From Natronospiraceae bacterium (lineage in GTDB: Bacteria; Pseudomonadota; Gammaproteobacteria; Natronospirales; Natronospiraceae): 49,856 bases of DNA. The DNA lies in contig SLND01000185.1 in NCBI GenBank assembly GCA_007133205.1, forward strand, positions 1 to 49,856, written 5' to 3'. Of this stretch, positions 21,416 to 27,940 are shown in pieces. The translations under genes and the position numbers were made by a program. Under the pieces are notes generated by a model, which worked only from the letters and a program-made list of their open reading frames with translations, was not told where the DNA came from and made no database searches. Positions within the stretch are counted from its first letter, which is position 1; each line of letters opens with the position of its first letter.

Positions 21416-21639
21416 CCCTTCGAAGCCTGCCCGAGGCTGCTCCACCAGAAATATCCCGCCGGTAATTTCAATATCAGGTCATTGACCCGCAACTCAGCGC
21501 GTTCCTGGTCTGGAGCGCGCGCGTGTGTATGATGGTACTCTGGAAAGAAGGGGAAACACCGGTATTCATATCAAGGGATGGCTTGACCGTGAGCCATGCC
21601 TCGGACGCCCTGGTAATTTCTGATGTGAGGGAGGGGGAA

Positions 21640-23397
21640 ATGAAAAAGTGGATGATAATGATCGGCATGCTGGTCTTCAGTGTGCAGGGAATCGCTCTGG
21701 CGAATGACGTGTCGGAAGAATCCCGGATTGAACGGGAAGCCGCGCTGGTCGAATGGCTGGGCGTGGCGCGCTACTTCCATCCCGCCGATGGTGTGGAAGA
21801 GACCGACTGGGAAGGGGTCCTGCACAAGGCCCTCAAGGTGGCCGCCCAGGCGGAAGATGACGAGACCTTCGTGGATGAGGTGACTGCGCTGATTGAACCG
21901 GCAACCGTGGGTATGGTGGTCGGAGCGGAGGTGAGCGGACAGGGTGTGATGCCGGAAGACTGTGATGCAGCGCCCCTGCGCTGGACGCATCGCGGCTTCG
22001 ATGCCTGGCCGGTAGTCGACGAGGAGCATATTGCCAATCACTATCAAAGTGAACGCAGCGAGTGGCCCGGGGAAAGGCTTGGAGTGGCGGAGGACGAGCT
22101 TCCGCGGGACTGGAAAATGAACCTGCCCGGTGGGCGCAGTGTCAGCTTGCCCCTGGCTCTCTGCCCGGAGCAGGCCGCGGAATCCGAAGCCGTGAAACCG
22201 CCGGAGACCGACTTTGGCGAGGATCATGCCGCAATGGCCCGTTATGCCATCGCCCAGATGGCCCCGGTATTCAGGCATTTCTATCCCTACCAGACGCATA
22301 TGAGCAGGGACTGGGATGAATGGCTACGGTCGGAACTTGCCAGGGCCCATGAGGTTGAAGACCGGGAAGGACTCCATGTATTCCTGCAACATTTCGTCGC
22401 GCCTCTCAATGACGGGCATCTGATGGTCCTCGATACCAGGGCCGAGGGGGAGTCGGGTTTCCTGCCCATCGATATCGTCTGGCATGAAGACAAGGCAGTC
22501 GTTATTCACATCAATGAACGCGCTGAGTCTGATCTCCAATTGGGTGACCGGATCAAAAGCGTCAATGGGGAACCCACGAAGGAATGGCTGGAAACGCGCA
22601 TGGCGCGCTACAGCGGAACCAGTCAGTGGCGTCAGGAGCGGGCGCGCCGGGAATTTCTCGGCAATGACCGGGATGGCGCGGACTCGATCGAGCTGGAACT
22701 GATCCGGGATGGGGATGTTGAATCGATCGAGCAGGAATACAGTGCCCCGGGCATGGCACACGCCCCCGAGCGGGAAGGATTCGATGAACTTGGCGACGGT
22801 GTGGTGTATGTGGATCTGCGCGCCAAGGACATGACGGCCCTGAACGAACGTATGGATACCCTGATCGAGGCGGAGACCGTGGTCTTCGACTTGCGGGGAT
22901 ACCCCACCGATGCCGGGGCGGGAATATTGACTCATCTGCTTGAGGAACAGGATGAGTGGGGTGACTGGATGCGCGTGCTCATGGCCACCGGTCCGGGAGG
23001 AGAGTTCTTGCCCTACCAGGCCCATGGCTGGCATATACCGCCGAGCGAGGATCATATCGGCGGCAAGGTAGCCTTTTTGAGTAATGGCCGTGCCATCAGC
23101 TATACGGAGTCGGTGGTGGGCATGGTGAAAAAGCATGAGCTGGGCAAGCTGGTCGGCGGCTCTACTGCCGGTGCCAACGGTAATGTGATCATGCTGGAGG
23201 GCCCGGATGGTCTTGATGTGATGTTCACCGGCATGCAGGTCCTCAATCCGAAAGGTCGCACTTTCCACGCCGAGGGACTGCATCCGGATATCGAAGTGAC
23301 TCCCGACCCCGAGCGCCTGGCCCGGGGTGAAGATCCCGTGCTGGAGGCAGCCCTTGAGGCACTGGGCGCGGATCCGGAGTTGGCATATCCGGAGTGA
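21640..23397 (+). CDS. Secreted S41 (C-terminal processing) family peptidase
   Basis: The 585-residue exported protein has a clear signal peptide (MKKWMIMIGMLVFSVQGIALA). A helical segment (about 25-200) of the kind that precedes some S41 domains follows. At 260-330 lies a Tricorn/PDZ-like part (GHLMVLDTRA; LQLGDRIKSVNGEPTKEW) and then the catalytic S41 part, with VVYVDLR, VVFDLRGYP, VAFLSNGRAISYTESVVGMVK (the nucleophile serine should be in the SNGRAIS region) and GGSTAGANGN. The His usually found early is not clear, so catalysis should be checked. GAGGGAGGGGG precedes the ATG at 21640; the frame extends upstream to 21523, but the signal peptide fixes the start. A role in protein degradation in the periplasm is inferred. 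Confidence 0.85.
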   Translation: MKKWMIMIGMLVFSVQGIALANDVSEESRIEREAALVEWLGVARYFHPADGVEETDWEGVLHKALKVAAQAEDDETFVDEVTALIEPATVGMVVGAEVSGQGVMPEDCDAAPLRWTHRGFDAWPVVDEEHIANHYQSERSEWPGERLGVAEDELPRDWKMNLPGGRSVSLPLALCPEQAAESEAVKPPETDFGEDHAAMARYAIAQMAPVFRHFYPYQTHMSRDWDEWLRSELARAHEVEDREGLHVFLQHFVAPLNDGHLMVLDTRAEGESGFLPIDIVWHEDKAVVIHINERAESDLQLGDRIKSVNGEPTKEWLETRMARYSGTSQWRQERARREFLGNDRDGADSIELELIRDGDVESIEQEYSAPGMAHAPEREGFDELGDGVVYVDLRAKDMTALNERMDTLIEAETVVFDLRGYPTDAGAGILTHLLEEQDEWGDWMRVLMATGPGGEFLPYQAHGWHIPPSEDHIGGKVAFLSNGRAISYTESVVGMVKKHELGKLVGGSTAGANGNVIMLEGPDGLDVMFTGMQVLNPKGRTFHAEGLHPDIEVTPDPERLARGEDPVLEAALEALGADPELAYPE

Positions 23398-23720
23398 TTT
23401 TTCGTCAATTCGAATAGATATCGACTGAAATGGATAGGGAAGAGGGGCGGCAGGGAGGCTTGCCCGTCTGTCCAGGGCGCGAGGATCCACCTCGGGCCGG
23501 ATGTGTTTCGGCACGCCGGGCAGGGGTGCTTTCCTGAGCGTATTCCCCCGCAGGGAAGCTGATTGATTCCGCTGCTGGCATGCGGGATAATACTGTATAT
23601 AATGACAGCATCGGGGCTATGCGCGCCGGGCTGAGTTGATCGACGGCTCACCCGAAGCGAGCAGCCCATGTTTGCTAGAATCGCCGCCTGTCCCAGCAAT
23701 CCATTCCGCGAGTCACCTGA
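23398..23720. other. 323-base non-coding gap upstream of parE
   Basis: No supported gene is present; a six-codon frame (ATG at 23619) in the presumed leader has no visible ribosome binding site. The gap contains the promoter and LexA-like site listed separately. Downstream of them GGGCTG (23628-23633) can pair with CAGCCC (23662-23667), with GCTC (23646-23649) and GAGC (23659-23662) nested inside, so the parE leader may fold. parE has no strong Shine-Dalgarno sequence. Confidence 0.5.
23575..23608 (+). promoter_or_regulatory. Sigma-70 promoter overlapped by a LexA-box-like palindrome, upstream of parE
   Basis: CTGGCA (23575-23580), a 17-base spacer and a perfect TATAAT (23598-23603) form a good sigma-70 promoter. 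The -10 lies inside CTGT-N8-ACAG (23593-23608). Against the 20-base E. coli LexA consensus, TACTG(TA)5CAGTA, bases 23591-23610 match 16 positions, including the whole left half. A repressor bound here would block the promoter. The only gene it can drive on this strand is parE, about 110 bases downstream. LexA control is inferred from the motif. Confidence 0.6.
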
Positions 23721-25613
23721 ATGAACGATCGCTACGATGCTTCCAGTCTCGAGGTGCTCACCGGCCTGGAGCCGGTCCGCAAGCGCCCCGGGATGTATAC
23801 CGACACCTCCCGCCCCAATCACATCGCCCAGGAAGTCATAGACAACAGCGTGGATGAGGCCATTGCCGGCCACGCGGACAGGGTCACCGTGATTGTCCGC
23901 AAGGACGGCAGTCTCGAAGTGCGTGACAATGGACGTGGCATGCCGGTGGACATCCACCCGAAGGAGAAGATTCCCGGGGTGGAGTTGATCCTCACCCGCC
24001 TCCATGCCGGGGGCAAGTTCTCCGACAAGAATTACCGTTTCTCCGGTGGCTTGCACGGGGTAGGGGTCTCGGTCACCAATGCCCTGTCAAAGTGGTTGGA
24101 GGTCGAGGTGCGTCGCGATGGGCGCAGCTGGACCATGGCCTTTGCCGGTGGCAGGCGCAAGAAAAAGCTTACCGACACCGGCAAGGTCGGCAAGCGCAAT
24201 ACCGGCACTACGGTACGTTTTCTCCCCGACCCGAAGTATTTCGACACGACCAGGTTCGGCATTGCTCACCTTCGCCATGCGCTGCGTGCCAAGGCCGTCC
24301 TCTGTCCCGGTCTCACCGTGCGTTTCGAACGCCCCGGCGAAGAGGCGGAGGAGTGGTGCTATACGGGAGGTGTGGCCGATTATCTGGCAGAAGCCCTGGG
24401 TGAGCTGCCGCGTCTGCCCGAAGATCCCTTTGATGGCTCCATCGAAGGCCAGAACGAAGCGGCGGAATGGGCCGTCACCTGGCTGCCCGAGGGCGGCGAA
24501 GGTGTCGCCGAGAGCTATGTCAATCTGATCCCGACGGTACAGGGGGGTACCCACGTCAACGGCCTGCGCGCTGGTCTGACAGATGCAATCCGTGAATTTG
24601 CCGAATTCAGGAATCTTCTCCCGCGCGGCTTGCGGATTACCCCGGAAGATGTGTGGGAAAACTGCAGTTACATTCTCTCGGTGAAGATGCATGACCCGCT
24701 CTTTTCGGGTCAGAAAAAGGAGCGGCTGGGCTCACGGGAATGTGCTCCCTTCGTTTCCGGCGTGGTCAAGGATGCCTTTCTGCTGTGGCTGAATCAGCAT
24801 TCGGATGCCGGGGATCAGATTGTCCAGCTTGCCATTGCCAACGCCAACCGGCGTCTCAAGGCGAGCCGCAAGGTGGTCCGCAAGCGGGTGACCTCGGGCC
24901 CGGCCCTCCCGGGAAAGCTGGCGGATTGCACCGCCCAGGACCCGGAGCGGACCGAACTTTTTCTCGTGGAAGGGGATTCCGCCGGGGGGTCGGCGAAACA
25001 GGCAAGGGATCGGGAGTTTCAGGCAGTCATGCCGCTGCGCGGCAAGATCATGAACACCTGGGATGTGGAGCCGGCGCAGGTGCTGGGGTCCCAGGAAGTC
25101 CATGACATCAGTGTGGCACTGGGCGTGGACCCGGGATCCGATGATCTGAGCGGTCTGCGCTACAACAAGATCTGCATTCTCGCGGATGCGGATTCTGACG
25201 GGCTGCATATTGCAACCTTGCTGTGCGCACTCTTTCTGCGCCATTTCCGGCCCCTGGTCAGCCGGGGGCACATCTTCGTTGCCATGCCTCCACTGTATCG
25301 TATAGACGTGGGCAAGCAGGTCTTTTACGCCCTGGATGATGCGGAAAAGCAGGGCGTACTCGACCGCGTTGAAGCGGAAAAACTCAAGGGCAAGGTCACG
25401 GTGACCCGGTTCAAGGGCCTCGGCGAAATGTCACCGGTCCAGTTGCGTGAAACAACCATTTCTCCGGATACCCGGCGACTGGTGCAACTTACCATTCGTG
25501 ACGGTGATGACACCGACCGCCTGATGGACATGCTTCTGGGTCGGGGGCGTGCCGCCGATCGGCGAGGCTGGCTCGAGAAAAAGGGCAATCTGGCGGATAC
25601 CGAAATCCTGTGA
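23721..25613 (+). CDS. parE: DNA topoisomerase IV subunit B
   Basis: ParE supplies the ATPase of topoisomerase IV, which unlinks replicated chromosomes. The 630-residue protein has the GHKL ATPase motifs (DNSVDEAIAGHADRV, RDNGRGMPVDIHPKEK, GGLHGVGVSVTNALS), the transducer domain with KKRLGSRECAPFV-type residues around 330, and the TOPRIM domain with EGDSAGGSAKQARDREFQ (catalytic Glu417) and the DADSDG metal site. LRGKIMNTWDVE and the short length mark it as ParE rather than GyrB. parC follows after 59 bases, so both subunits are made from one operon. Confidence 0.96.
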   Translation: MNDRYDASSLEVLTGLEPVRKRPGMYTDTSRPNHIAQEVIDNSVDEAIAGHADRVTVIVRKDGSLEVRDNGRGMPVDIHPKEKIPGVELILTRLHAGGKFSDKNYRFSGGLHGVGVSVTNALSKWLEVEVRRDGRSWTMAFAGGRRKKKLTDTGKVGKRNTGTTVRFLPDPKYFDTTRFGIAHLRHALRAKAVLCPGLTVRFERPGEEAEEWCYTGGVADYLAEALGELPRLPEDPFDGSIEGQNEAAEWAVTWLPEGGEGVAESYVNLIPTVQGGTHVNGLRAGLTDAIREFAEFRNLLPRGLRITPEDVWENCSYILSVKMHDPLFSGQKKERLGSRECAPFVSGVVKDAFLLWLNQHSDAGDQIVQLAIANANRRLKASRKVVRKRVTSGPALPGKLADCTAQDPERTELFLVEGDSAGGSAKQARDREFQAVMPLRGKIMNTWDVEPAQVLGSQEVHDISVALGVDPGSDDLSGLRYNKICILADADSDGLHIATLLCALFLRHFRPLVSRGHIFVAMPPLYRIDVGKQVFYALDDAEKQGVLDRVEAEKLKGKVTVTRFKGLGEMSPVQLRETTISPDTRRLVQLTIRDGDDTDRLMDMLLGRGRAADRRGWLEKKGNLADTEIL

Positions 25614-25672: not shown

Positions 25673-27940
25673 ATGAGCGAAACCACCGAAGAGCGCCATC
25701 AACCCTGGGAAAGTCAGACCCTGGGGGATTTTACCGAAAAGGCCTACCTGGATTACTCGATGTACGTGGTTCTGGACCGGGCCCTGCCGCATGTCGGGGA
25801 TGGCCTCAAGCCGGTCCAGCGCCGCATTGTCTATGCCATGTCCGAACTGGGCCTGTCCGCCGGTTCCAAGCCGAAGAAATCCGCGCGGACGATTGGTGAC
25901 GTGCTCGGGAAATATCATCCTCATGGTGATTCGGCCTGTTACGAGGCCATGGTCCTGATGGCCCAACCCTTTGCCTATCGTTATCCCCTGGTGGACGGGC
26001 AGGGCAACTGGGGTTCCCCGGACGATCCCAAATCCTTCGCCGCGATGCGCTACACCGAGGCCCGGTTGGCGCCCTATGCCGGTGTGCTACTGGCAGAACT
26101 GGGTCAGGGCACCGTGGACTGGACCGCGAATTTCGACGGCACGCTCCAGGAGCCCGAGACGCTGCCGGCACGCCTGCCCAATGTCCTGCTCAATGGAACC
26201 ACGGGCATTGCCGTGGGCATGGCCACCGATATTCCGCCGCACAACCTGCGGGAAGTGGCCGGTGCCTGCATGCGACTGCTGGAGAACAGCCGCGCTTCTC
26301 TGGACGAACTCATGAAGCACGTGCCGGCACCGGATTTTCCCACCGAGGCCGAGATCATTACGCCGGCCGAAGATATCCGGGCAATGTATGAGAGTGGGCA
26401 TGGTTCGATCCGGATGCGGGCTGCATGGAAGCGGGAAGACGGGGACATCGTGATCACCGGGCTGCCATTCCAGACCGCCGGCAGCCGGGTGCTGGAGCAG
26501 GTGGCAGAGCAGATGCGGCAGAAGAAGCTGCCCATGGTGAGCGACCTGCGCGATGAGTCTGATCACGAGAATCCGGTGCGCCTGGTGATCGTGCCCCGTT
26601 CCAACCGGGTGGACTGTGAACGACTGATGAGCCACCTGTTTGCCACCACGGACCTGGAGAAGAATTATCGGGTCAACATGAATGTGATTGGCCTGGATGG
26701 CCGACCGCAGGTCAAGGGCCTGAAGGGGCTGTTATCCGAATGGATCAATTATCGTCTTGAAACGGTAACCCGGCGCCTGCAGTTCCGCCTCGATCGGGTG
26801 GAAAAACGCCTGCATATCCTTGAAGGCCTCCTGATCGCCTACCTGAACGTGGATGAGGTGATCCGGATTATTCGCGAGGAGGACGAACCAAAGCCGGTCC
26901 TGATGAAGACCTTCGGTCTCAGTGACCCACAGGCCGAGGCCATCCTGGAACTGAAGCTGCGCCATCTTGCACGCTTGGAGGAAATGAAGATTCGTGGCGA
27001 GCAGGATGAGCTGATGCAGGAATACCAGTCACTGCAGAAAACCCTGGGCTCCCGGCAACGCCTGAAGACCCTGGTCAAGAAGGAGATCAAGGCGGACGCG
27101 GAACGCTACGGAGATGCGCGCCTGTCGCCGATCGTTTCGCGAACGCCCGCACGTGCGATGGACGAGTCCGACCTGGTCCCCACCGAACCGGTTACCGTGG
27201 TTCTGTCGAAACGCGGCCTGGCGAGGGCAGCCAAGGGCCACGATGTGGATCCCGAGAAGCTGAACTTCAAGTCCGGCGATGGTTTTCTTGCTTCTGCACG
27301 TGGACGGAGCAACCAGCCTGCGGTATTCCTGGATTCCACCGGACGAACATACACTGTTCCCGCCCATCTGCTGCCTTCGGCACGGGGGCAGGGTGAGCCC
27401 CTGTCCGGTCGGGTCAATCCCCCGGATGGTGCCACCTTCGCCGGCGTCATGACCGGCGAAGCCGATGATCGCTGGTTGCTGATGACCGACCACGGCTATG
27501 GCTTCATCGCACGCCTGGGTGATCTTCTGACCCGTAATCGCAAGGGCAAGGCCGTGCTCAAGGTGCCACCCGGCGCGGGTGTGCTGCCACCCACACCGGT
27601 GATGGACGCGGAGCATGACTGGATCGCGGTTGCCGGCAGCGAAGGCCATTTCCTGACCTTCCCGGTAGAGGATCTCCCGGAAATGCCGCGGGGCAAGGGC
27701 AACAAGATGCTGGGCCTGCCCCCCCGCCGTGTTCGCGCCGGGGAGGAACGGGTCGCGGCAGTTACCACCTATGACGAAGAGGACATCCTGGTCCTGTACA
27801 GCGGGCAGCGCTACAAGCGTCTCGGCCCCGATGAACTGGATGAGTACCAGGGAGAGCGGGGACGCCGCGGCTACAAGCTGCCCCAGGGCTGGCGCAAGGT
27901 GGATCGGCTGGTGCCGGTGAGCCGTCTCCCCGAATCCTGA
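25673..27940 (+). CDS. parC: DNA topoisomerase IV subunit A
   Basis: ParC forms the DNA-cleaving core of topoisomerase IV with ParE. The 755-residue protein has the catalytic Tyr127 in MRYTEARL, the helix [16 protein letters not shown] with Ser87 and Glu91 (equivalents of the quinolone-resistance positions Ser80/Glu84 of E. coli ParC, both wild-type here), and a C-terminal beta-pinwheel (about 500-740) with degenerate blades and without the GyrA-box, as expected for ParC. Identity to E. coli ParC is very high around the active site. The stop is seven bases from the heat-shock promoter of htpX. Confidence 0.96.

Follow-up and report, generated by a model that had tools for sequence, protein, structure and literature searches.

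A predicted LexA operator overlapping a putative distal promoter of the topoisomerase IV operon in a Natronospiraceae bacterium

The segment at positions 23591-23610 of the window (the whole stretch of 49,856 nucleotides analysed here, from contig SLND01000185.1 of an uncultured Natronospiraceae bacterium) is very probably a LexA operator (SOS box). It is located upstream of parE and parC, the genes for topoisomerase IV, and it is a near-exact copy of the operator of the lexA gene in the same genome, so that production of this enzyme probably rises when DNA is damaged. In the arrangement that we consider likely, LexA would cover the -10 element of a distal promoter (P1) of parE-parC, and P1 would be a damage-inducible promoter above a base level from a proximal promoter (P2).

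The box and the putative distal promoter upstream of parE

The parE gene (topoisomerase IV subunit B, 630 aa) is located at 23721-25613 and the parC gene (subunit A, 755 aa) at 25673-27940, both on the plus strand. Their matches to TIGR01055 (957.9 bits) and TIGR01062 (1060.4 bits), respectively, are far above the NCBI model cut-offs. The gap between the two genes is 59 bp, and they are likely carried on one transcript, with the predicted LexA site at the parE promoter and parC as the next gene. An S41-peptidase-like gene (21523-23397, plus strand, with a C-terminal match to PF03572) sits between a TolC-like gene and parE in the window. In three genomes of the same family (G001-G003), parE directly follows the TolC-like gene (tblastn, 65-66% identity), and no S41 match was found by tblastn between these two genes.

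The predicted operator, TACTGTATATAATGACAGCA, has no strand assigned to it. At its center is an exact CTGT-N8-ACAG core, CTGTATATAATGACAG (23593-23608), with CTGT at 23593-23596, ACAG at 23605-23608 and a spacer of 8 bases, and this is the only such core in the window. The core has the palindromic form of the gammaproteobacterial SOS box, including an A/T-rich spacer. An earlier note on this DNA had reported a match to the E. coli LexA consensus, TACTGTATATATATACAGTA, and a reading of 23591-23610 agrees with it, as 16 of the 20 bases are the same. An outer base is off the consensus, with GCA where GTA is expected.

The same note placed a TATAAT inside the box, and it is indeed found there, at 23598-23603. 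This hexamer is the -10 element of the putative promoter P1 (23575-23603, plus strand), which has its -35 element, CTGGCA, at 23575-23580 and a spacer of 17 bp. In a consensus scan P1 agrees with the consensus at 10 of 12 positions, the TATAAT being perfect, and two promoter-like hits are found in this region as compared to 0.1 expected. With the -10 element of the predicted promoter inside the box, binding of LexA could repress P1. For the minus strand, the promoter scan gave no support for a promoter at the box.

The LexA of the host and the site model

The host genome is a draft assembly (84% complete, 2.07 Mb) with a single copy of lexA. The alignment of its LexA with that of E. coli, for which structures have been solved, covers the full length of the protein. 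The recognition region, LGFRSPNAAE.HL.AL, is retained with hardly any change, and the catalytic residues (Ser and Lys) are present, as is the AG cleavage site.

The operator of this lexA gene, CTGTATATAATCACAG, is located 41 bp before the ATG and overlies a TATAAT as well, and a half-conserved second box follows it upstream of lexA. The parE core and this operator are identical at 15 of 16 positions, with one base different, and over the 34 bases between the start of the -35 element and the end of the box the two promoter-operators agree at 25. The possibility, raised in the earlier note, that the LexA of this genome recognizes another motif is therefore not borne out, given its own operator, the resemblance of the two promoters and the conservation of LexA itself.

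In the lexA locus (L001, contig C39), imuA follows lexA, which suggests a lexA-imuA(-imuB-dnaE2) mutagenesis operon headed by a canonical LexA. The recA contig begins inside the recA gene.

For an independent site model, a 20-base weight matrix was built from 14 lexA-operator sites, taken in both orientations, from eight other genomes, all of which have CTGTATA...CAG boxes at lexA. Only lexA operators of other genomes were used, so neither the host genome nor parE contributed to the matrix, and since the matrix is symmetric a scan of a single strand of the window was enough. The parE site has a score of 23.1 bits, the best in the window, and the runner-up position is 10 bits lower, at 13.1 bits. 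In the genome, where pattern scans and selected loci rather than every base were scored, only lexA (25.9 bits), a PA0069-family radical SAM gene (23.8 bits) and parE are above 17 bits. Places with three or fewer mismatches from CTGTATATATATACAG number four genome-wide (lexA, parE, the PA0069-family gene and one weak site), as compared to one for a reversed-pattern control. The operator of the host's own lexA, the site model and the near-identical DNA-binding domain of LexA thus strongly support the reading of this site as a LexA operator.

It is extremely unlikely that the site is an A+T-rich promoter that resembles a LexA box by chance. TATA-rich letters are common to TATAAT-type promoters and the LexA spacer, and there are 20 exact CTGT-N8-ACAG cores in the genome versus 9 for the reversed control, which indicates that many exact cores are due to chance. 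Most of the other cores, however, are within coding sequence or have far lower scores. The full-site score at parE is 23.1 bits, as compared to 16.4 bits at most for the other scored cores (excepting lexA and the PA0069-like gene), and none of the 40 million positions in simulated sequence (40 Mb, with the trinucleotide statistics of the window) reaches this score.

Two other candidate sites were observed in the genome. A strong candidate LexA box, TACTGTATATCCGTACAGTT, is located immediately before the PA0069-family radical SAM gene (L002:1499-1518, contig C18), the family being assigned by a match to NF033668. PA0069 of P. aeruginosa is a LexA target and a member of the SOS regulon; a literature search on PA0069 together with LexA found nothing. 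A weaker LexA-like box (16.4 bits; L016:1499-1518, contig C132) separates two divergent genes, one encoding a PF06189 5'-nucleotidase and the other an ExeM/NucH-type extracellular nuclease, and marks a possible further SOS target.

The putative proximal promoter and the proposed mode of control

In the earlier note, parE was the only gene that the boxed promoter could serve. It is indeed the first gene downstream on the plus strand, but P1 is probably not its only promoter. A putative extended -10 element, TGC-TAGAAT (P2, 23673-23681, plus strand), is located between P1 and parE, with its hexamer (23676-23681) outside the LexA box and at -45 from the parE start. Of 104 parE loci, 22 have TAGAAT in the interval from -80 to -20, as compared to 4 and 0 in the two intervals upstream of it, and the same-family relatives have a -10-like element, GTTTAGAATCC, at about -40 from parE. 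We infer that P2 would be the older, proximal promoter, free of LexA cover, and P1 the newer, LexA-covered distal one. With a P2-like element outside the box, the control by LexA probably amounts to an extra, inducible distal promoter and is not the sole control of parEC.

In undamaged cells, LexA on the box would block P1, and the conserved P2, about 75 bp downstream, would continue to supply the essential topoisomerase IV. When an essential operon is subject to repression, some basal expression has to be maintained, and P2 would provide it. RecA on single-stranded DNA would lead to self-cleavage of LexA, upon which P1 would open and the transcription of parEC would rise alongside that of lexA, imuA and the PA0069-like gene. 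This would give extra decatenation capacity during replication-fork repair and sister-chromosome separation. More topoisomerase IV would aid the separation of sister chromosomes following repair and where forks converge. We infer these steps (LexA binding, the activity of P1 and P2, damage induction and the physiological benefit) from the sequence. The induction of parEC is probably real but partial, and the net induction could be small if P2 is active.

It is possible, though we consider it unlikely, that LexA binds the box but P1 adds little. In this case P2 would set the expression level, and the box would be a recent, nearly neutral acquisition with a small induction. The retention of the P2-like element is consistent with this, as is the distribution of the box, which is missing from same-family relatives and nearly all of the sampled gammaproteobacteria (see below). 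On the other hand, P1 is better than P2 by consensus (10 of 12, with a perfect TATAAT), and its layout mirrors that of the lexA promoter. Moreover, two diverged genomes of another lineage have in common a different parE box, and this suggests that selection can maintain such an arrangement.

P1 might instead chiefly drive some other product of the 110 bp upstream of parE, such as a leader peptide or a short RNA, with parE expression as a by-product, which we regard as very unlikely. An 18-codon reading frame, MFARIAACPSNPFRESPE (23668-23724, plus strand), begins downstream of P1 and ends in a stop codon that overlaps the start of parE (ATGA). As it begins upstream of the expected start of the P2 transcript, it would be carried by P1 transcripts only; the frame could also be due to chance. 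E. coli has small genes under SOS control. Against this role of P1, however, a search of 23380-23760 gave no match to an Rfam family, a scan of the stretch between P1 and parE gave no terminator-like site, and the interval has no sizeable ORF.

Distribution of parE boxes and comparison with known systems

Conservation in relatives, which the earlier note had proposed as a check on the LexA site, is missing. The box is absent at parE in the three same-family genomes. A survey of 369 genomes across the class, in which the exact core was sought no more than 131 bp upstream of the start motif of parE (the parE-start pattern recovers 106 of 110 known parE loci), finds it in one, namely that of the window, and in none of the other 368 gammaproteobacterial genomes sampled. 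The missing conservation lowers the likelihood of function without excluding it.

A different parE box, CTGTTAATATATACAG, is located about 40 bp before parE, corresponding to its proximal promoter position, in 2 of 217 genomes of a separate gammaproteobacterial family (L133 in G397; L032/L134 in G384). Between these two genomes the 20-base box is 95% identical, as compared to 57-62% for the flanks and 75% for the coding sequence, which indicates that the box was kept where its surroundings changed. G397 has a lexA gene with the same operator type; lexA was not found in the G384 draft.

The window lineage and G384/G397 are apart in a protein tree; between the two are genomes that lack the box and belong to well-supported groups. 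As the boxes also differ in position and sequence, the simplest reading is that they were gained independently, and it is preferred here over an ancestral parE box with many losses. With independent gain, we lean slightly toward at least two acquisitions of LexA control over topoisomerase IV within Gammaproteobacteria, by different routes. A LexA-covered distal promoter would have been added above the old one in the window lineage, and the box would be at the proximal promoter position in G384/G397.

The earlier note considered damage control of decatenation to be unusual. This is overstated across bacteria, in view of Staphylococcus, Bacteroidetes and Sinorhizobium, but it is fair for Gammaproteobacteria. 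In E. coli, parE and parC are not known to be LexA targets. The literature searched, which left out most subscription journals, gave no account of LexA control of parE in Gammaproteobacteria. As SOS-controlled topoisomerase IV is known elsewhere, the control proposed here would be of a known kind, though apparently not one known in Gammaproteobacteria.

If confirmed, SOS control of topoisomerase IV would reach Gammaproteobacteria with a canonical LexA box, in a class whose model organism does not have such control. The operon would also offer a two-promoter case (one LexA-controlled, the other apparently constitutive) for studying extra decatenation under DNA damage, and the relevant damage includes that by fluoroquinolones, which are poisons of topoisomerase IV itself. 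If LexA control was gained at least twice in this class, damage-induced decatenation would, with Firmicutes, Bacteroidetes and Alphaproteobacteria also counted, be a feature of the SOS response that has arisen repeatedly by convergent evolution.

In S. aureus, the parEC operon is under LexA control, and parE and parC share a transcript made from a parE promoter that has a LexA site (PMC11442139), similar to the arrangement proposed here. However, this Gram-positive organism has a different LexA and motif, CGAACGTACGTTTG (PMC11442139), and the sites are not homologous. LexA control of topoisomerase IV has also been predicted in Lactobacillaceae (PMC3616900). In Bacteroidetes, parCE is SOS-regulated, with induction by mitomycin C confirmed by RT-qPCR (PMC8565304). 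The likeness is in a topoisomerase IV operon with a LexA site, predicted from sequence in our case, but the LexA of Bacteroidetes is non-canonical, with a CTAA-N5-TTAG motif (PMC8565304).

The parE gene of Sinorhizobium meliloti is reported to be SOS-regulated (cited in PMC3323433). It is a LexA target in a proteobacterium, as is predicted here, but the alphaproteobacterial LexA has a different recognition motif. The topoisomerase gene under SOS control in Vibrio is topB (PMC3323433, PMC5963079). It is a gammaproteobacterial topoisomerase with the canonical gammaproteobacterial box, as in the present case, but it is topoisomerase III rather than IV (PMC3323433, PMC5963079). The operator type, CTGT-N8-ACAG, is that of the E. 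coli SOS regulon, the LexA of which can be aligned with the host LexA from end to end.
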